Positions 26,080-37,898 of a stretch of DNA of 37,898 nt are shown one piece after another. Both the position numbers and the translations under genes were made by a program. Numbering within the stretch: position 1 is the stretch's first letter; every line of letters starts with the position of its first letter. The notes under the pieces were generated by a model that was given only the letters and a program-made list of their open reading frames with translations, did no database searches and had not been told where the DNA came from. The DNA is from Bacteroidota bacterium (lineage in GTDB: Bacteria; Bacteroidota; Ignavibacteria; UBA10030; UBA6906), in assembly GCA_020846365.1 (NCBI GenBank), contig JADLEA010000207.1, positions 1 to 37,898 of the forward strand, read 5' to 3'.

Positions 26080-28548
26080 ATGAAGGCGTTGTGTGTTGCG
26101 GTGATAGCTGCCTTGATCCTGCTTGGCTGCGGAAGCAGCAAGCCCCCCGATGTTGCTGCCGGCGCAGCCGCCAAGGGGCCCGAAAAGAAAGACGGCCCAA
26201 AGGCCTACGCGGATGTCATCACGAAGGAGGCAAAGTCCGATTCGGGCATGTTTATCGCTCACCGGATCAAGCAGAAGCTCTTCTACGAGATCCCCGCAAA
26301 GGAGTTCGGCAGAGAATACCTGCTGGTCACTTCCACGGCCAAGACACAATCCGGTCTCGGATACGGCGGGGACAATGTCAATTACCAGGTAGTGCGCTGG
26401 GACCGTTCGGGTGACCGCGTGATCCTGCGCAGCATCCTGTACGCCTCCGTTGCCTCGGATTCTCTCCCGGTCTCCTATGCCGTGGACAAGGCGAATTTTG
26501 CGCCGATCCTCATGGTGTTCGACATCCAGGCGTTCAACAAGGATTCCAGCGCGGTTGTTGTTGACGCCACGGATCTCTATGTATCCGACATGACGGAGCT
26601 GGGCCTGGATCGACGGACGCGCGAGCAGTTCAAGGTCCGGCGCGTCGACCCCAAACGCACGTTCGTTGAGAGCGTGCGCGCATTCCCGGACAACATCGAA
26701 ACCCGCGTGACCGTCACCTATGACGCAGGGCAGGTTCCCGTGGACAATGCCTTGAGCACGATCAGTCTGCTGTTGCACCAGTCCATGGTGCGGCTTCCTG
26801 AGAAACCGATGATGCCCAGGTTGTATGACGAACGGGTGAGTTTCTTCTCGCACCAGGTGTACGACTACGGTTATGACGGTCACCGTGCTGAGCGCCGACG
26901 CCATATTGCCCGCTGGCGGATGGAGCCCAAAGACACGGCGGCCTTTCTCCGCGGCGAACTCGTGGAGCCGGTAAAGCCCATCGTGTTCTACATTGACCGG
27001 GGGGTTCCGGACAAGTGGCGGCCCTACCTGAAGCGCGGGGTGGAATCCTGGCAGAAGGCGTTCGAGAAGGCGGGGTTCAAAAACGCGATTCTGGCCAAAG
27101 ATCCGCCGTCTGTATCAGAGGATCCGGACTGGAGTTCCGAAGATGCCCGGTATGCTACCATCCGGTGGCTCCCCTCGGAAATTGAGAACGCGTATGGTCC
27201 GCATATCTCCGACCCGCGGACCGGGGAGATCCTGGATGCGGACGTCGGGTTCTTCCACAACGTTATGAACCTCGCCAGAAACTGGTATGTGGTTCAGTCG
27301 GGCGCCGTGGATCCCAGGGCGCAGAAGCTGCCGCTCCCCGATGATTTGCTCGGCGAGCTGCTTCTGTACATTGCCGCCCATGAAGTCGGGCATTCGCTCG
27401 GATTTCCGCACAACATGAAGGCCACGTCGATGTATCCCGTGGACAGCCTCAGGAGCCGCACATTTACGGAGAAGTACGGCACCGAGGCCTCCATTATGGA
27501 CTATGGCCGGTTCAACTACATTGCACAGCCCGGAGACGGCGCGCACCTCATCCCCAAGATCGGTCCCTACGATCTGTTTGCTGTCGAGTGGGGATACCGG
27601 CCCTTTGTCGGCGCGAAGACGCCTGACGAAGAGCGCGTGCACCTTAACCGGATCGCGGCGCGTCAGGAAACGGAACCGTTTCTCCGTTTCGGCGACGCCG
27701 ACGGAGTGGATCCGTCTGCGCAGACAGAGGACCTGGGTTCGGATGCTGTGGCGGCCACACAGTACGGTCTCAAGAACATCGCGCGCATCGCGGATCTCCT
27801 TCTGACGATCACCACGAAGCAAGGCGAAGACTACAGCCTGCTGCGCGAGCTCTACCAGGAACTGATCGGCCAGCGCAACAGGGAACTGGGTCATGTGGCC
27901 AATGTGGTCGGCGGAGTTACCCGCACGCGGCGAGTGGCGGGGCAGGAGGGAACGGTGTACGATCCGGTTCCGCGAGAGAAACAAAAGGAAGCGATAGCGT
28001 TGCTCACGCGCGACGCATTCCGCACGCCCACGGAAATCCTCAAGCCGGATATTCTGAAGCTCATCGAGCCGAGCGGGACCGCCGAACGGGTGCTGCAGGG
28101 TCAGCGCAATGTTCTTGCGACGCTGTTGGACAACCGGCGACTTGCGCGCATGGCGAATATTCAGGCCATGCCGGGCGCAGATGCCCGCCCGTACCGTCTG
28201 AGCGAGATGTTCATCGACCTGCGTAGCGGCATCTGGAGCGAACTGGGGACGGGAAGGGTGGGGACCGATCTCTACAGGCGAAACCTGCAGCGTGCCTACC
28301 TGGAGTTGTTCGACGCCAAGTTGAATCCCGCACCCGCGCCTGCTGTTCCTGCGGGGATGCCTGCCGGATTGGCCGCGACGCTCTTTGCGCCCCTGCCGGG
28401 TGAAGCACGCGCAATCATGAGGGCCGAGCTCCAGGATCTGGATGCGGCTCTCGGCCAGGCCCTGTCCAGGAGCTCGGATCGCGAAATACGTGCGCATCTC
28501 CAGGATTGCCGGTACCGGATTTCAAAGATTCTCTACCCTGACAAGTAA
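26080..28548 (+). CDS. zinc-dependent metalloprotease lipoprotein (DUF5117/DUF5118-type family)
   Basis: Lipobox LILLGC; HEVGHSLGFPHNMKATSMYP (HExxHxxGxxH) and Met-turn-like SIMDYGRFNYIAQPGDG. Confidence 0.9.
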   Translation: MKALCVAVIAALILLGCGSSKPPDVAAGAAAKGPEKKDGPKAYADVITKEAKSDSGMFIAHRIKQKLFYEIPAKEFGREYLLVTSTAKTQSGLGYGGDNVNYQVVRWDRSGDRVILRSILYASVASDSLPVSYAVDKANFAPILMVFDIQAFNKDSSAVVVDATDLYVSDMTELGLDRRTREQFKVRRVDPKRTFVESVRAFPDNIETRVTVTYDAGQVPVDNALSTISLLLHQSMVRLPEKPMMPRLYDERVSFFSHQVYDYGYDGHRAERRRHIARWRMEPKDTAAFLRGELVEPVKPIVFYIDRGVPDKWRPYLKRGVESWQKAFEKAGFKNAILAKDPPSVSEDPDWSSEDARYATIRWLPSEIENAYGPHISDPRTGEILDADVGFFHNVMNLARNWYVVQSGAVDPRAQKLPLPDDLLGELLLYIAAHEVGHSLGFPHNMKATSMYPVDSLRSRTFTEKYGTEASIMDYGRFNYIAQPGDGAHLIPKIGPYDLFAVEWGYRPFVGAKTPDEERVHLNRIAARQETEPFLRFGDADGVDPSAQTEDLGSDAVAATQYGLKNIARIADLLLTITTKQGEDYSLLRELYQELIGQRNRELGHVANVVGGVTRTRRVAGQEGTVYDPVPREKQKEAIALLTRDAFRTPTEILKPDILKLIEPSGTAERVLQGQRNVLATLLDNRRLARMANIQAMPGADARPYRLSEMFIDLRSGIWSELGTGRVGTDLYRRNLQRAYLELFDAKLNPAPAPAVPAGMPAGLAATLFAPLPGEARAIMRAELQDLDAALGQALSRSSDREIRAHLQDCRYRISKILYPDK

Positions 28549-29621: not shown

Positions 29622-29981
29622 TTACAACTTTTCGATGGCTTTAAGGAGGCGGGCGAGATCGATGGGTTTTTGCAGGAAGGCGTCGACGCCGGAAGCCAGG
29701 ATCTCGGCGGGGGAATAGAATTGAGAGTATGCCGTGACCATGATAATGGGGAAGAGCGGGTTTTTTGATTTCGCGTGTTTGGAAAACTCGATGCCGTTCA
29801 TCCGGGGCATGTCCAGGTCCACGATAGCCATGTGCACCAGGGATTTGCTCATGACTTCCAGCGCCTGCTCGCCGTTCTCAGCTTCCAGAATGGAATACCC
29901 CTTTTCCTCCAGGATGTCCTTCAGAAGCTCTCTGGCCTCGGCGTTGTCGTCGATAACGAGGATGCGGGCCCCGGTTTTCAC
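29622..29981 (-). CDS. stand-alone response regulator receiver domain protein
   Basis: RILVIDDNAEARELLKDILEEKGYSILEAENGEQALE...MAIVDLDMPRMNGIEFSK...IIMVTAYSQ...VDAFLQKPIDLARLL. Confidence 0.93.
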   Translation of the reverse strand: MKTGARILVIDDNAEARELLKDILEEKGYSILEAENGEQALEVMSKSLVHMAIVDLDMPRMNGIEFSKHAKSKNPLFPIIMVTAYSQFYSPAEILASGVDAFLQKPIDLARLLKAIEKL

Positions 29982-31183
29982 GAGGGGCTCCCGGCTTGTC
30001 CCCCGGAGAGCACTGCCGAATCCTCCAGGATGCGCCGCACTTCGTCGGCTGTCCGGATCATCTCCTCCTCACTATTATAGAAGTGCGGAGAGAACCTGAG
30101 AAACCCTTCCCTTACCGCAATCGAAATTCCACGTGCCTTGAGGCGACCAACGACATCCTCGGCCCGGATTCCCGATGGGGGTTGTATCGTCACAATGCCC
30201 GCGCGATGGCGGGGATCGAAGGGGGTAATCATCCGGACGCCGGGAATTGCCACGAGTTTCCGCATGAGAATGTCCGTCAAACCCAGGATGTGGTCTGCGA
30301 TGGCCTCGAGGCCGAATTCCAGTAGAGTACTGATGGCCTCCCGCATGGCATGCATGCCTGCGATATTCAGCGTTCCTCCTTCGTAACGGCGGGCTGAGGG
30401 AGCGGGGGGTTGGTCCAGGAGCCGGAAGTTCCATGGAGATGCGACCGAAAGCCAGCCGAGGTATTGCTGCTGAATCCGATCCTGGAGCTCCGCGGAGACA
30501 TACAGAAACCCCGTGCCCGGCGGGGACATCTGCCATTTCTGGGCTCCGGCGGCCAGGGCATCGATGTGCAGCTCCTGAACGTTGCAAGGCACTGCACCCA
30601 CGGACTGGATGCCGTCGACGACGAAGATGATGCCACGGGACCGGCACAACGCTCCGATCTCCGCAAGATCCGCCCGATACCCCGAGAGAAACTGAACGGC
30701 GCTCAACGACACCAGGCGTGTCGTGGGGAGGAGAGTGTCTTCCACTGCTTCTGGCGTGACCACTCCGTCGGGAGCAGGAAGAAGGTCAATGCGCACTCCG
30801 TGACGACGCAGATGCAGGAAGGGATGGAGGTTTGCGGGAAATTCCGCGTCATTCAGAAGCACATGGTCTCCGCTCTTCCAGGGGAGCCCGGAGGCGACGA
30901 CGTTGATCGCGTCCGAAGTGTTCATCTGAAATGCGATACGCTCAGGCGCCTCTGCGTGGATCATCTGCTGGACCAGGCGGCGCCATGCTCTCACCATTTC
31001 GACGTCCGTCTCGTAGGAATCGATGCTGCCGGTCATGCGGTCCTGAATATGGCGTGACAGGGCATCTGCGACGCGCGTGGAGAACGGGCTCGTCGCGGCA
31101 TGGTTCAGGTAGATCTTGCCGCTGGCAAGGTAGGGGAAGAGGGAGCGTGCGCGATCAAGGAGGTGGCGGGGAAAGAGAGTCAT
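29978..31183 (-). CDS. aminotransferase class V (cysteine desulfurase/selenocysteine lyase-like fold)
   Basis: IYLNHAATSPFSTRVADAL...RIAFQMNTSDAINVVASGLPWKSGDHVLLNDAEFPANLHPF...FVVDGIQSVGAVPCNV...LAAGAQKWQMSPPGTGFLYV. Confidence 0.92.
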   Translation of the reverse strand: MTLFPRHLLDRARSLFPYLASGKIYLNHAATSPFSTRVADALSRHIQDRMTGSIDSYETDVEMVRAWRRLVQQMIHAEAPERIAFQMNTSDAINVVASGLPWKSGDHVLLNDAEFPANLHPFLHLRRHGVRIDLLPAPDGVVTPEAVEDTLLPTTRLVSLSAVQFLSGYRADLAEIGALCRSRGIIFVVDGIQSVGAVPCNVQELHIDALAAGAQKWQMSPPGTGFLYVSAELQDRIQQQYLGWLSVASPWNFRLLDQPPAPSARRYEGGTLNIAGMHAMREAISTLLEFGLEAIADHILGLTDILMRKLVAIPGVRMITPFDPRHRAGIVTIQPPSGIRAEDVVGRLKARGISIAVREGFLRFSPHFYNSEEEMIRTADEVRRILEDSAVLSGGQAGSPS

Positions 31184-31248: not shown

Positions 31249-31277
31249 TTGACTTCCCCTTGCCCCTTGCCTATATT
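31249..31277 (+). promoter_or_regulatory. candidate promoter of the C1 peptidase-pbpC operon
   Basis: TTGACT (31249-31254) N17 TATATT (31272-31277), 25 nt upstream of the ATG, with GGAG at 31291-31294. Confidence 0.7.
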
Positions 31278-31301
31278 CGTTCACACCAGCGGAGAAAACC
31301 C

Positions 31302-32084
31302 ATGGCAGCTCGTTCGCGGAGGCGACCCCGTCGGCATGCATACGGATGGGTACCTGACCTTCCCGACCAACGCGACTACCTCTACCGCGTACGTCATCCG
31401 GAGGTACCGGCCCTCCCCTCCTCGATGGATCTAAGGCCGCACTGCTCGCCGATCGAAGATCAGGGTGCTCTGGGGAGCTGTACGGCGCAGGCCCTGGTGG
31501 GAGCAATGGAGTTTCTCGAGAACAAGGACGGTGTTCCGTTCAAGGACCTCAGCCGGTTGTTCGTCTATTATAATGAGCGCGTCCTGATCGGCACGACGGG
31601 GTGGGATTCGGGCGCGACGTTGCGTGACGGTATCAAGACGCTCGCCAAGCAGGGGGTGTGCTCCGAGAAACTGTGGCCTCATATCATCAGCCGGTATAAG
31701 AGAAAGCCCAAGAAATCCTGCTACACCGAGGGTCTGGATCATCAGATCACGTTGTACGAGCGCCTGCTGTCCGTCGAGGAAATGCTCGGCTGTCTCGCCG
31801 ATGGTTACCCGTTTGTTTTCGGGTTCTCGGTGTATGAGAGCTTTGAATTCGGTGACGTTGCCACCACGGGAGTGGCTGTGATGCCGGAGCCCGATGAGCG
31901 TCTGCTGGGCGGGCATGCGGTACTGGCAGTCGGCTACGACGCCTCAGCGCAGCGGTTCCTGGTGCGCAACTCCTGGGGCTCCCGATGGGGACAACGGGGG
32001 TACTTCACCATGCCCTACGCCTATCTCGAAAACCGGAATCTCTCCGACGATTTCTGGACCATCCGCCGCGGCGAAAACATGTGA
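31302..32084 (+). CDS. papain-family (C1) cysteine peptidase, no signal peptide
   Basis: YGWVPDLPDQRDYLY...IEDQGALGSCTAQALVGAMEF (Q/Cys), GGHAVLAVGYD (His), VRNSWGSRWGQRGYFTMPYAYL (Asn). Confidence 0.92.
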   Translation: MAARSRRRPRRHAYGWVPDLPDQRDYLYRVRHPEVPALPSSMDLRPHCSPIEDQGALGSCTAQALVGAMEFLENKDGVPFKDLSRLFVYYNERVLIGTTGWDSGATLRDGIKTLAKQGVCSEKLWPHIISRYKRKPKKSCYTEGLDHQITLYERLLSVEEMLGCLADGYPFVFGFSVYESFEFGDVATTGVAVMPEPDERLLGGHAVLAVGYDASAQRFLVRNSWGSRWGQRGYFTMPYAYLENRNLSDDFWTIRRGENM

Positions 32085-32091
32085 GACGCTC

Positions 32092-34404
32092 ATGCCGGTG
32101 AAGGACGTGCGTCGCAGTCTTGTGATCGCCGGCCCGGTTCTGGCCAGCGGCCTTCTGATTTGGCTCTGGTGGACGTTATTTCCTCTGCCTCCGCCCAAGC
32201 CATATTCATTGGTGGTGGAAGACCGGCAGGGACGTTTTGTGCACGCGTTTCTTGCGACAGACGGGGTGTGGCGCCTCAAGACCTCACCTGATGAAATTCC
32301 TTCGCGGCTGAAAACCATCCTGCTGGAAAAGGAGGACCGCTGGTTCTACTACCATCCGGGCGTCAATCCCTTTTCCCTTGTCCGTGCGGCATTCCAGAAT
32401 CTTACCTCCGGCCGCCGCGTCTCCGGCGCATCCACGATCACTATGCAGCTCGCACGGATGCTGGAGCCGAAAGAACGCACGATACCGAACAAGCTTCTCG
32501 AGATGGTGCGCGCGCTGCAGTTAGAATGGGCATATTCCAAGGACGAGCTCCTCGAGATGTATCTGTCCATGGTGCCGCTCGGAGGGAACATCGAAGGGCT
32601 CGCTTCGGCCTCGCTGCTCTACTATCAGACTCCACTGGAACGGTTGAATATCGCTCAGCTGCTGGACCTGATTCTGGTTCCCAATAATCCAAACGCTCTG
32701 AGGCCGGACCGGTCGGGAAGCGTCTTGCTGGAGGAGCGTCTGAGGCGTTCACGCGCATGGATCGCGAAGGGACTGCTCACGTCCCAGGATTCGCTCATTC
32801 TCTGGTCGACGCCTTCCGCTGCCACTCGGCAGGCCCCCCCCAGACATGCTCCGCATTTTGCGCTGCGCCTCTTCCGCCAGTTCCCCGCAGGGGCAACCGT
32901 GCGGACATCTCTGGACCTGGATATGCAGGACAGGGTGGAGAAACTGCTCAGCAACCACCTGAGGCCGTGGAAGCGTCTGGGAGTGCAGAATGGTGCGGTA
33001 CTTGTGATTGAGAACGCGAGCGGCGCCGTACGGGCGTACGTCGGTTCTGAGGCATTTGCGGATCATGCTGCGCGGGGGCAGGTGGATGCCGTCGTGGCGC
33101 TCCGGTCGCCCGGCTCGACCTTGAAGCCGTTGTTGTACGCGATGCAGATGGAGCGGGGAGATCTGACGCCGCGCACCGTGGTGCTCGACACGCCGTACGA
33201 TGCGGAGGGGTTCTATGCCGAGAACTACGACGGCGGGTATGACGGCGCGGTGTATGCCGACGAGGCGCTCCAGCGGTCACTGAACGTCCCGATGGTACGC
33301 ATGTTGAAGCAGGCGGGATTGACGCAGTTCCAGAAATTTCTTGACCGTCAGGGTTTTGCCTCGCTGCATGCACAACGGGATCGGCTCGGCTTAAGCATGA
33401 TCCTGGGGGGATGCGGCGTGCGGCTGGATGAGCTTACGAATGCCTTTGCCTCGTTTCCGCGGGGTGGACACTGGAGACCGCTCTCCTTCCTCGAGCGCGG
33501 GGCACCGGACACCGCCGGGGTGCGGAAGGTCTTTTCGCAGGCAACGGCATACATGGTCACCCACATTCTCTCGGGGCTGGAGCGGCCGGACTTGCCCAAC
33601 AACTTCGACTACACCCTGTACCTCCCCCGCGTCGCATACAAGACGGGCACAAGCTACGGGAGGCGTGATGCCTGGTGTATCGGGTATTCCGCCGAATACA
33701 CCGTCGGGGTATGGATTGGAAACGTGACCAATGAGGGTGTTCCCGAACTGGTCGGGAGCCGCTCGGCCGCGCCGCTTCTCCTTGACGTATTCACATCGAT
33801 CTCCACCCCTTCACAGAAAACGATTCTTGCAGCGCCGGCGGAGATCAGGCTGCGCCGGGTCTGCGCGCGGAGCGGCCGTCCCCCGGGCCCATACTGTTCA
33901 CGGTTCATGGACGATCTGTATGCCGACGGGCAGTCCAGGTCCACACCCTGCGATATCTGCGCGGAATTCCTGGTATCGCGTGACGGGCGCACCACGTTTT
34001 GCGCGACATGCCTGGGGGATCACCCATATCAGGCAAAGGTGTTCGCACAATACCCCCCTGAGCTTCTGCACTTCTGGCGAACGCATGGCATGATGCAGGA
34101 GACAGCTCCGCCGCACAACCCGGAATGTACGCGCGTGTTTGCCGGCGAAGGACCGACTATCCTCAGCCCCACGGAAGGGATGACGTACTATGTTGTGGCG
34201 CGCAATCAGCAATTCCTCTTGCAGGCCGGGTCCGGGGTGGATGTCCGCGAACACCGGTGGTACCTGGATGACCGCTATCTGGGTGTCAAACGGCCCGGAG
34301 AGAAGCTGTTCCTCGCGCTCAGTGAGGGGAGTCACGCCATCTCCTGTCTGGATGACCGGGGGCGGCTTTCGACAGTGACGATCGCCGTGAAGTACGCGCT
34401 GTAA
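32092..34404 (+). CDS. pbpC: penicillin-binding protein 1C
   Basis: Start ATG 32092; TM; GT51 KEDRWFYYHPGVNPFSLVRA...GASTITMQLARML; transpeptidase SPGSTLKPLLYAM, RSLNVPMVRML, YKTGTSYGRRDAWCIGY; C-terminal BiPBP-like domain. Confidence 0.96.
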   Translation: MPVKDVRRSLVIAGPVLASGLLIWLWWTLFPLPPPKPYSLVVEDRQGRFVHAFLATDGVWRLKTSPDEIPSRLKTILLEKEDRWFYYHPGVNPFSLVRAAFQNLTSGRRVSGASTITMQLARMLEPKERTIPNKLLEMVRALQLEWAYSKDELLEMYLSMVPLGGNIEGLASASLLYYQTPLERLNIAQLLDLILVPNNPNALRPDRSGSVLLEERLRRSRAWIAKGLLTSQDSLILWSTPSAATRQAPPRHAPHFALRLFRQFPAGATVRTSLDLDMQDRVEKLLSNHLRPWKRLGVQNGAVLVIENASGAVRAYVGSEAFADHAARGQVDAVVALRSPGSTLKPLLYAMQMERGDLTPRTVVLDTPYDAEGFYAENYDGGYDGAVYADEALQRSLNVPMVRMLKQAGLTQFQKFLDRQGFASLHAQRDRLGLSMILGGCGVRLDELTNAFASFPRGGHWRPLSFLERGAPDTAGVRKVFSQATAYMVTHILSGLERPDLPNNFDYTLYLPRVAYKTGTSYGRRDAWCIGYSAEYTVGVWIGNVTNEGVPELVGSRSAAPLLLDVFTSISTPSQKTILAAPAEIRLRRVCARSGRPPGPYCSRFMDDLYADGQSRSTPCDICAEFLVSRDGRTTFCATCLGDHPYQAKVFAQYPPELLHFWRTHGMMQETAPPHNPECTRVFAGEGPTILSPTEGMTYYVVARNQQFLLQAGSGVDVREHRWYLDDRYLGVKRPGEKLFLALSEGSHAISCLDDRGRLSTVTIAVKYAL

Positions 34405-34567
34405 TTACCAGCCCCCGTGCGGGATCCGCGTGCTGCGGGGAAGCGTTGCACGCTCAAGCGTTGAATCAGCAAGCCGGTTTTCCGGCACCGCCGCCGGGGC
34501 CGCACCCTGAACAAAGAGATTGATTGCAGAGCAACTCCATCAAACCCAAGGCGAATCGGGAGAACAC

Positions 34568-37500
34568 ATGAACCGCCACATTTCTCTATCGGTAACGATC
34601 CTTCTGGCGCTCCTGCTCATCAGTTGCGGTGGGCCGGACAGCACGCTGCTTCGCGTCACGACAACTCTTCCCGCCGGCATTCTGGAGCGGGATGCCGTGC
34701 TCCCTGTTGCGTTTTCCATGGGGGTCGTTCCCATGGACTCCGTCAACCAGTGGACCTCGACGCCATACATCCTGTTCTCGCCCGATATTCCGGGCAAGTT
34801 CGTATGGGAAGACACCACGCGCCTTGTGTTCAGCCCTGACGGCCAGCTTCCCGGCGACGGCCGGTTCACAGCCCGGCTGAACACCGCGCTGCTCACCCAA
34901 CTTGCCGGCGCCGCGGGTTTCGACGGACCGGAGGAATTCTCGTTTTCGACCGAGAGCTTCAGGATGAAGAACGCCGAGTTCTTCTACGACCGCATCGGCG
35001 AGCGGCGGGAAATTGGAATCCGCGCGAATCTCGAATTCACCTATGCCGTGAATGCACAGGATATTCCGTCGACCATACGCGTCACGATCGACAATGAGCC
35101 ACGGCAAATCTCCGGCGTGGTGACAACCGGGCAGAGCACCGTCATTGCGCTTGACATCGGCACCGTGACACAGCTCGACCGTGAGCGCACCATCGCGGTG
35201 ACGTTCGCAGAGACCCTGGTTTCCCCGGAAACGCAGACGCACATCAGCATGACCGAGCCGTTTGTCTACCGCATGGCCCCCCTTGGAGAGCTCAAGATCC
35301 TGGGACACGAATTCGGTTCTGACGGGACGAACGGCTGGATCAAGATCAGGACGTCGCAAGAAGTGGATGCCGACGTCGCTCGCGCCGCTGTGACGCTCGA
35401 TCCGGCCCGGACGTTCACGGTGCGCAACGACGGGGACGGCTTCACGCTCCTGGGCGCTTTCGAACCGGGTGCGACCTTCCGCCTCAACGTCAAGAGCGGC
35501 ATGGTGAGCGTGCTCGGCGGGAAGACGCAGCATGCATACGAGGCGGACATCCTGATGGGGAATGTCGCCCCGACCTTCGGTTTCGCGTCCGCAAGCGGCA
35601 TGTATATGATGCTCGGCGGCGAGAAGAGCATCGACATCAAAACCGTAAACCTCTCCCGTCTTGCGGTGCGGGTGAGCCAGATCTTTCAGAACAATCTCGT
35701 CTTCTTTCTGGAAAGCGGCAGATATTACGACTATTCCTACTATGACTACGAGGAAGAGGAGAGCCCCAGGTCCTGGATCAAGAAATACCGGTTCTACGTG
35801 GGGAACTACGGCAGGCAGCTTTCGTACGATACTCTCACGATTGCCAGCTCACCCAACCGCGAGGTGACGACTCCGTTCAGCCTGTCGCCGTTCCTCAACA
35901 CGGGCTACAAAGGTTTCTACCTTGTGGAAATCGCCAATCCCGAAGAGGCGTGGCGATCCACGGCCAAGCTCATTTCCATCTCCGATATCGGCTTGATCGT
36001 CAAAGCGAGCAGGGATGCCGTGCTGGTCTTTGCCACGAATCTGCAAACCACGCTGCCCATGCAGGACGTCAGCATTTCCCTGATATCGACGAACAACCAG
36101 GTGATTGCGACAGGGAAGACGGACGGAGGAGGCGTCGCACAGTTCACCGGCCTGGCAGACAAGTTGCAGGAATTCCCGATGAAGCTGATCACGGCGGAGG
36201 CCGAGAATGATTTCAACTTCATCAACCTTGATGACTACCGGGTCGAAACCTCCCGGTTCGACGTGGCAGGAAGGCGGGATGTGGGCGGACCATACGATGC
36301 CCTGCTGTACGGCGACCGCACGATCTACCGCCCGGGGGAACGTATCATGGTTTCGGGAGTCGTTAGAAATATCTCGCAGCCCGTTCCTGCGGCGATGCCG
36401 GTGCATCTGAAGCTGTTCAGCCCCCGGGGATCCCTCCTGCAGGAAACCCAGCACGTTCTGAATCAGGAGGGATCGTTTGAGACATCCACACCCACGGCCA
36501 CCTCGTCGGCAACCGGAGACTACCGCTACGACCTCTACACGGGGAGCGGCATGTTTCTTACCACCTACAAGGTAAGCGTGGAAGACTTCGTCCCGGATCG
36601 CCTCCGGGTGAACCTGACGCCTTCCACGGAGACAGCCGCACTGGGCGAAACGATCAGTTACACCATCCAGGCAACCAACTTCTTCGGTCCACCGGCTGCT
36701 GACCGCAATTGGGAGTTCGAAGGCGTGTTCACGGTGCTCCCCTACACATCGAAACGGTACCCGGAATTCCGTTTCTGGGACGATGCTGCGCGCAACGCCG
36801 TGGGGGATCCGTTCGTAGAAACGGGTCGAACGGATGCGCAGGGGAATGCCGAGGTAGATTTCCCCATTCCAACGGGGCTCACCACTACCGGCATCCTCCG
36901 GGCGCGTGGGCGCGTCGGGGTGTTCGACGAATCCGGCCGTCCGGTGTACCGGATCGCTCAAACGCTCGTGTATCCAAAGCCGTACCTTATCGGCATCCGG
37001 AATCTCGGCCCGTACTACATGGCGCCAAACACTCCGCAGAAGGTGCAGATTGTGGCGGTGGATATCCAGGACCGGCCTCTCCGCGGGTTCACCGCGCGGG
37101 TCGAGCTCGTGCGGTTTGAATGGCATTCCATTCTCCGCCAGCATCCGCAGACCAAGACGCTCCGGTATGTCTCCGAACGCCGGGAGATACAGGTGCGTTC
37201 GGACAGGATCACGCTGGGGGACGGCCCCTTCGAGTATTCCTACGCCGTTCCTCGCTCCGGCGACTATGCACTCAGGGTAAGCAAGGACGGGGATGCCGGG
37301 TACAACCAGATCCAGTTCTACTCATACAGCTGGGGAACGTCGGACATCACCTCCTTCGAAGTGGATCCGGAAGCCAGGGTGGACATCGTCGTGGACAAGA
37401 GCGTCTACGCTCCGGGCGACAAGGCGCGGATTCTCTTCCAGACGCCGTTCAGCGGGCGGATGCTTGTGACGGTGGAACGCAACCGGGTTTTCAGCCATCG

Positions 37501-37898
37501 CTATCTGGATGTCGTCAACAACGCTGCCTCCATGGATCTGGACATCGAGGAGCAGCACCTCCCGACGGTGTACATTTCTGCCGTGTTGTTCCGCAAGATC
37601 ACCGACCTGTCCATCCCGCTTCTTGCGGGCCACGGGTTTGCGCCTCTCATGGTGGAGAAGAAGACCAACAAACTCGATGTGCAGATCAGGGCGCCCGAAA
37701 AGATCCGGCCGAAGACGAAGCAGTCCGTGACAGTGGCAATCGCGGGGGAGAGTGGAGTGACCTTCACGCTGGCGGCCGTGGATGAAGGGATCTGCCAGGT
37801 GAAGAACTACAAGACTCCCGATCCCTACGGCTTCTTCTACGCCAGAAAAGCGCTCGAGACGGAGACCTTCGACTTCTTCAAGCATCTCCTGCCGGAAC
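34568..37898 (+). CDS. alpha-2-macroglobulin family lipoprotein (partial, runs off window)
   Basis: MNRHISLSVTILLALLLISCGGPDS (lipobox LISC); open from 34568 to the window end as spot-read in frame; DRTIYRPGERIMVSGVVRN (MG2-like), DKSVYAPGDKARILFQTPFSGRMLVTVERNRV, LAAVDEGICQVKNYKTPDPYGFFYARKALETETFDFFKHLLPE. Not in the ORF track because it has no stop in the window. Confidence 0.93.
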   Translation, partial: MNRHISLSVTILLALLLISCGGPDSTLLRVTTTLPAGILERDAVLPVAFSMGVVPMDSVNQWTSTPYILFSPDIPGKFVWEDTTRLVFSPDGQLPGDGRFTARLNTALLTQLAGAAGFDGPEEFSFSTESFRMKNAEFFYDRIGERREIGIRANLEFTYAVNAQDIPSTIRVTIDNEPRQISGVVTTGQSTVIALDIGTVTQLDRERTIAVTFAETLVSPETQTHISMTEPFVYRMAPLGELKILGHEFGSDGTNGWIKIRTSQEVDADVARAAVTLDPARTFTVRNDGDGFTLLGAFEPGATFRLNVKSGMVSVLGGKTQHAYEADILMGNVAPTFGFASASGMYMMLGGEKSIDIKTVNLSRLAVRVSQIFQNNLVFFLESGRYYDYSYYDYEEEESPRSWIKKYRFYVGNYGRQLSYDTLTIASSPNREVTTPFSLSPFLNTGYKGFYLVEIANPEEAWRSTAKLISISDIGLIVKASRDAVLVFATNLQTTLPMQDVSISLISTNNQVIATGKTDGGGVAQFTGLADKLQEFPMKLITAEAENDFNFINLDDYRVETSRFDVAGRRDVGGPYDALLYGDRTIYRPGERIMVSGVVRNISQPVPAAMPVHLKLFSPRGSLLQETQHVLNQEGSFETSTPTATSSATGDYRYDLYTGSGMFLTTYKVSVEDFVPDRLRVNLTPSTETAALGETISYTIQATNFFGPPAADRNWEFEGVFTVLPYTSKRYPEFRFWDDAARNAVGDPFVETGRTDAQGNAEVDFPIPTGLTTTGILRARGRVGVFDESGRPVYRIAQTLVYPKPYLIGIRNLGPYYMAPNTPQKVQIVAVDIQDRPLRGFTARVELVRFEWHSILRQHPQTKTLRYVSERREIQVRSDRITLGDGPFEYSYAVPRSGDYALRVSKDGDAGYNQIQFYSYSWGTSDITSFEVDPEARVDIVVDKSVYAPGDKARILFQTPFSGRMLVTVERNRVFSHRYLDVVNNAASMDLDIEEQHLPTVYISAVLFRKITDLSIPLLAGHGFAPLMVEKKTNKLDVQIRAPEKIRPKTKQSVTVAIAGESGVTFTLAAVDEGICQVKNYKTPDPYGFFYARKALETETFDFFKHLLPE

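Follow-up and report, generated by a model that had tools for sequence, protein, structure and literature searches.

Does a protease gene that stands at the head of an envelope-defense operon work together with the other products of that operon, or has it only come to share their promoter? The question is raised by the right-hand end of a 37,898-nucleotide (nt) contig (JADLEA010000207.1) from a Bacteroidota bacterium (GTDB lineage Ignavibacteria; UBA10030; UBA6906). We refer to this whole stretch as the window, give all coordinates along it, and call its genome G000. In the window, the gene for a papain-like C1A cysteine peptidase (hereafter C1) precedes pbpC, which encodes penicillin-binding protein 1C (PBP1C), and a gene for a bacterial alpha-2-macroglobulin (A2M). 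A sequence-only reading had suggested that the three products could make up an undescribed envelope defense or quality-control module. Our analysis indicates, with a probability that we put at about 0.72, that the known pbpC/type I A2M operon captured a mobile protease gene, which became its accessory lead cistron. Sequence comparisons establish the features on which this reading draws, namely, gene order, coupled spacing, inheritance of the promoter, shared descent, repeated absence of the peptidase, purifying selection, and membership in the xylellain type. We class the locus as a variant, at the level of one family, of the pbpC-type I A2M operon already known, and our reading leaves room for some benefit of coexpression.

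Gene order and promoter of the apparent operon

The C1 gene occupies positions 31302 to 32084 of the forward strand (ATG at 31302, TGA at 32084) and encodes a short peptidase of 260 amino acids (aa). A Shine-Dalgarno-like GGAG can be read nine bases before the ATG (31289 to 31304 with the start, +). After a gap of exactly 7 nt in the sequence (32085 to 32091, +) comes pbpC (32092 to 34404, +; 770 aa), and after a 163-nt spacer (34405 to 34567, +) comes A2M, which confirms the order and the 7-nt spacing given in the sequence-only reading. The A2M gene starts with the ATG at 34568 and is cut by the end of the contig, so that only its N-terminal part lies in the window (34568 to 37898, +). An in-frame ATG at 31182 was rejected as the C1 start, as it lies upstream of the promoter and homologs begin near 31302; sequence comparison places the N terminus of C1 at the same position as theirs.

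C1 stands directly before pbpC in four genomes from three genera of the family: G000 and G002, which belong to one genus, and G005 and G010, which belong to two others. The junction measures 7 nt in G000 and in G002, 25 nt in G010, and -4 nt in G005, where the two genes meet in an ATGA overlap. G002, G005, and G010 repeat the order and the spacing, which rules out an adjacency private to the window genome or created by an assembly accident.

The near-consensus promoter of the sequence-only reading is a real site that is conserved in relatives, but by itself it does not exceed chance. The sigma-70-type promoter-like site TTGACT-17-TATATT lies at 31249 to 31277 (+; -35 at 31249 to 31254, -10 at 31272 to 31277). 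Scanning alone returned 2 promoter-like sites against 1.3 expected, and a chance origin was set aside on conservation in relatives only. In G000 and G002, C1 is preceded by TTGACT-17-TATATTCG. Their congener G001 lacks C1 and has TTGACT-17-TACATTCG, with similar flanking bases, immediately ahead of pbpC; in G016 and G007, which also lack C1, TTGCTT-17-TATATT takes that place. A like site with the exact 17-nt spacer was found directly before pbpC in 13 of the 15 same-order loci without C1; in the three loci with C1 that were tested, none was found between C1 and its pbpC neighbor. Since the promoter stands before pbpC in relatives without the peptidase, C1 sits inside the pbpC-A2M transcription unit, and the natural reading of these sequences is that C1 was inserted between a preexisting promoter and pbpC. 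The 163-nt spacer between pbpC and A2M showed no terminator- or promoter-like site in a sequence scan, and we infer cotranscription of C1, pbpC, and A2M. The proposal of one apparent operon thus holds in silico: the pair is conserved in four genomes, its spacing is coupled, the ancestral pbpC promoter stands before C1, and the three loci tested gave no sign of separate transcription units.

PbpC scores 645 bits against the cutoff of 494 for TIGR02073 (PBP1C; NCBIfam) and has the glycosyltransferase (Transgly), Transpeptidase, and C-terminal BiPBP_C domains (Pfam) of a PBP1C. The N-terminal part of A2M contains MG3, MG2, MG5, MG6, and the bait region (A2M_BRD) (Pfam), and carries a lipoprotein-like signal (...LLALLLISCGG); the protein would be a periplasmic, membrane-anchored protease trap. 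The remainder of A2M, with the thioester motif GCIEQ, is found on contig C145 (G000:C145:1-2511), which shares overlapping protein sequence in A2M with the window contig (SHRYLDVVNNAASM...). The overlap (window 37495 to 37898 and G000:C145:1-400) differs slightly in A2M (LLAGHG and LLSGHG), which suggests strain variation that broke the assembly. GCLEQ is present in all nine close-relative A2Ms that were read. The C-terminal two-thirds of the G002 ortholog align with Salmonella A2M (4u48; E = 1e-100) and with E. coli YfhM, and the A2M encoded here is therefore, by sequence, a type I bacterial A2M. Wherever a close locus of the same order was inspected, its A2M gene lay next to pbpC. The sequence-only reading had called this pairing established, and it is indeed published (PMC4498604; PMC5764988). 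As in the yfhM-pbpC operon of E. coli and Salmonella described in those papers, a PBP1C gene adjoins the gene for a thioester-bearing lipoprotein A2M with a bait region; unlike in that operon, pbpC precedes A2M here, and in four genomes a papain-type peptidase gene stands ahead of both. The magABCDEF operon of Pseudomonas (PMC5764988) likewise co-encodes a bacterial A2M with other proteins, but its A2M is of type II and lacks the CXEQ motif found here, and its six-gene order has no counterpart in the window, where A2M is adjoined only by pbpC and the peptidase gene. We found no paper describing an operon of a papain-like peptidase, pbpC, and A2M in the open-license literature. About 280 nt past A2M on contig C145 (locus L206, 2792 to 3703) lies a gene for a small multihelix membrane protein that looks LiaF-like and may belong to the same transcription unit.

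Descent and probable loss of the peptidase within the family

The four C1 sequences form one clade (100/92) that branches as G005,(G010,(G000,G002)). Trees of PbpC and of the neighboring aminotransferase show the same branching, as does that of A2M for the three genomes with a complete A2M region. Identities between G000 and G002 are 82% for C1, 78% for PbpC, and 82% for A2M, and those between G000 and G005 are 69%, 60%, and 62%, respectively. The ratio of nonsynonymous to synonymous substitution rates (dN/dS) of C1 in comparisons with G005 is about 0.09 to 0.11, a rough value given that synonymous sites are near saturation. With the catalytic set intact, the C1 genes are evidently under purifying selection. 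Transfer of the operon as one unit among the carriers of C1 was ruled out, as the PbpC of G005 groups with that of G007 and the PbpC of G010 groups with that of G016, both from genomes without C1.

The slot is empty in several relatives. It lacks C1 in G001, which belongs to the same genus as the window genome, and in G007 and G016, all of which have pbpC-A2M; likewise, no C1 was found anywhere in the g7 genomes, where pbpC-A2M is present. In G001, the promoter and a ribosome-binding site are followed by a 30-codon frame whose product can be compared with the start of C1 (ARTAPRASRYSSGWAAD versus ARSRRRPRRHAYGWVPD). The frame, MSCIARTAPRASRYSSGWAADPSGRNGTRA*, lies within positions of about 2541 to 2760 of locus L135 and ends 4 nt before a possible ATG of pbpC. 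It is probably a remnant of the C1 start, left by an in-frame deletion as a coupled leader peptide. We prefer a history of one gain and about four losses to one in which C1 was gained there on three separate occasions, because the slot is identical, the C1 sequences form a single clade, and G001 appears to retain this relic.

Some of these loci have further peculiarities. In G010 (L017, 3849 to 8311), genes for a GH38 alpha-mannosidase and a galactokinase-like GHMP kinase are encoded on the opposite strand and separate the aminotransferase gene from the C1/pbpC operon, and a mannosidase-sized gene occupies the same place in G016 (L143), without C1. The pbpC gene is interrupted by a stop or frameshift in G016 (L143) and is split between two contigs in G010 (L017/L146); either sequencing error or a pseudogene would account for this.

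A xylellain-type peptidase and its neighborhoods elsewhere

The identification of C1 as a C1 peptidase with Gln/Cys/His/Asn motifs was borne out: Peptidase_C1 (PF00112, Pfam) matches residues 38 to 238 at 1e-15, and Gln54, Cys60, His205, and Asn223 are invariant in an alignment of 32 C1 sequences. The best relative in the PDB is xylellain of Xylella fastidiosa (3ois; E = 8e-64; runner-up, 6e-10). An AlphaFold model of C1 (predicted local distance difference test score, pLDDT, of 87) matches 3ois with a TM-score of 0.89 at 43% identity, and Foldseek ranks 3ois (2e-31) ahead of the next best structure (7e-14). Sequence and modeled fold identify C1 as a member of the xylellain-type short C1A peptidases, nearer to xylellain than to eukaryotic cathepsins. 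C1 shares with xylellain and the xylellain-like peptidases (XLPs) a single C1A domain in a protein of about 260 to 290 aa, a basic N terminus, the lack of a signal peptide, the fold, the catalytic set, and an N-terminal YG(W/Y)xPDxxDxRD segment. It differs from xylellain itself in being only 43% identical to it and in being encoded at the head of a pbpC-A2M operon.

The sequence-only reading had also stressed the absence of a prodomain, which is true of the classical cathepsin-type prodomain; a segment with the YGxxPDxxDxRD motif takes its place in C1, as in xylellain. It spans residues 14 to 25 (YGWVPDLPDQRD), and Gly15, Trp16, Pro21, Asp22, Arg24, and Asp25 of its YGWxPDxPDxRD sequence are as invariant in the alignment as the catalytic residues. 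In the xylellain structure, the N-terminal stretch reportedly blocks the active site, and a regulatory ribonucleotide is said to be bound. Model confidence for residues 1 to 30 of C1 is low to moderate, and the placement of the segment over the active site is a prediction only.

As had been proposed, C1 lacks a signal peptide: in a hydropathy scan of the first 70 residues, the 12-residue mean reached a maximum of 1.2, versus 3.0 for the A2M lipoprotein signal. Read from the sequence, C1 has neither a Tat-type hydrophobic region nor a C-terminal sorting domain, and Tat or type IX export was ruled out, as the N terminus lacks a hydrophobic stretch and nothing extends beyond the catalytic domain at the C terminus. 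Across the subfamily, the stretch before YGWxPDxPDxRD is short and basic (median net charge, +3; +2 or more in 73 of 86), and a hydrophobic stretch over 2.0 occurs in only 1 of 91 N termini. The strongly basic N terminus singled out earlier is therefore present but not special; it and the missing signal peptide appear from these alignments to be traits of the subfamily, with nothing peculiar to C1.

Outside the family, C1 homologs keep other company. We surveyed the best 80 loci from 84,980 genomes, one of which was the record of G002 itself; the short peptide patterns used are biased toward close relatives, and some of the contigs surveyed are short. Neither PbpC nor A2M was found near C1 in any of the remaining 79 loci, which come from many phyla, apart from one unrelated, weak transpeptidase-like match (L098). 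In a class sample of 391 genomes, C1 was found in 25 and a close PbpC in 71, and no C1 lay near pbpC outside the family; where both occurred, they were unlinked or 60 kb apart. A phylum sample of 396 genomes gave the same result, with no link of C1 to pbpC or A2M among the 30 best loci. These loci rule out an association general to the subfamily; in these surveys, the C1-pbpC-A2M association is confined to one family, with no recurrence in independent lineages. Clustering and hand reading of neighbors revealed no recurrent neighbor family of C1 elsewhere. The neighbor clusters were rejected as partners, being spurious long reverse-strand open reading frames or generic families such as response regulators, sigma-54 activators, and Omnitrophota pilus genes common to near relatives. 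The tree of the subfamily intermixes bacteria of many phyla with archaea of the Nitrososphaerota, and relatives are present in phage records. Consistent with this, viruses are described as having acquired the xylellain type by transfer (PMC10380794), and XLP genes of phytopathogenic Arsenophonus strains, unlike the gene described here, were reported to lie within phage regions or close to them (PMC12090721). By these comparisons, the subfamily is patchy and horizontally mobile.

Upstream of the operon and back to back with it, the window carries, on the reverse strand, a gene for a stand-alone response-regulator receiver domain (29622 to 29981) that overlaps by 4 nt the 3' end of a class V aminotransferase/cysteine desulfurase-like gene (29978 to 31183). 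The pair is kept in G001, G007, G010, and G016; coupling of a receiver to a pyridoxal phosphate enzyme is unusual. Another likely envelope protease, a large lipoprotein-like met-zincin (DUF5117/DUF5118/DUF4953), is encoded nearby (26080 to 28548) and also adjoins the operon in G002.

Alternative readings of the locus

In the reading that we prefer, a mobile, single-domain xylellain-type C1A gene would have been taken up in the family ancestor by a preexisting pbpC-type I A2M operon, downstream of its promoter and upstream of its first gene, and would now be transcribed and translationally coupled as its lead cistron. The product would be an active papain-fold protease, presumably kept latent, like xylellain, by its N-terminal segment. 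Because it has no export signal, it would most likely act in the cytoplasm or get out by a nonclassical route or by lysis, and it is apparently not needed for the envelope function of PbpC and A2M. Several points weigh against this reading. The pair has been retained since the family ancestor, in three genera, in first position, with tight coupling and under purifying selection; a chance insertion would usually decay faster, and some benefit of coexpression is therefore likely. One gain and about four losses take more steps than three separate gains, and support for the relic in G001 is moderate (protein comparison, 0 of 1,000 shuffles against G000 and 16 of 1,000 against G002; nucleotide comparison, 12 of 300). 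Moreover, nonclassical export of C1 is possible, as its sequence is compatible with it.

The alternatives and the preferred reading are not mutually exclusive. The closest, which overlaps with it, is that the gene is a pure hitchhiker that landed behind a good promoter and gains nothing from these neighbors. We regard this as somewhat unlikely. The patchy distribution over phyla that are mixed in the tree, the relatives in phages (PMC10380794), and the slot repeatedly found without C1 would all be expected of such a gene, but C1 has been kept in frame, under purifying selection, and in the same place in three genera, including the ATGA overlap in G005.

The most interesting surviving rival is a self-protection pair, in which C1 would be released outward, nonclassically or by lysis, the A2M lipoprotein would trap stray molecules in the periplasm, and PbpC would repair the wall. 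XLPs are predicted to be nonclassically secreted (PMC12090721), papain cleaves the bait region of a type II bacterial A2M (PMC5764988), the A2M here retains both its CXEQ thioester and its bait region, and order and coupling are fixed in three genera. However, C1 has no export signal, several relatives keep A2M without the peptidase, four genomes (G238, G281, G240, and G249) hold C1 and pbpC unlinked, and A2M requires no dedicated protease, which makes this arrangement quite unlikely. We give similarly little credence to the idea that in this family the operon became a three-gene protease, trap, and wall-repair unit, that is, an outward-acting or lysis-released protease with its own self-protection kit.

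Joint action of C1, PbpC, and A2M on envelope proteins or wall damage, as the sequence-only reading had proposed, could draw on the common promoter, the coupling, and the long retention, but it is highly improbable and not supported, because C1 carries no export signal of any kind sought, has no recurrent partner beyond this one family (0 of 79), and is dispensable, being repeatedly absent while pbpC-A2M remains unchanged.

The finding that a mobile protease probably became an accessory lead cistron is otherwise modest, but it indicates that a known envelope-defense operon can take up such a gene in first position and keep it family-long, yet shed it freely. The occurrence of the same operon with and without the peptidase in one genus also offers a small natural comparison for the function of xylellain-type peptidases.

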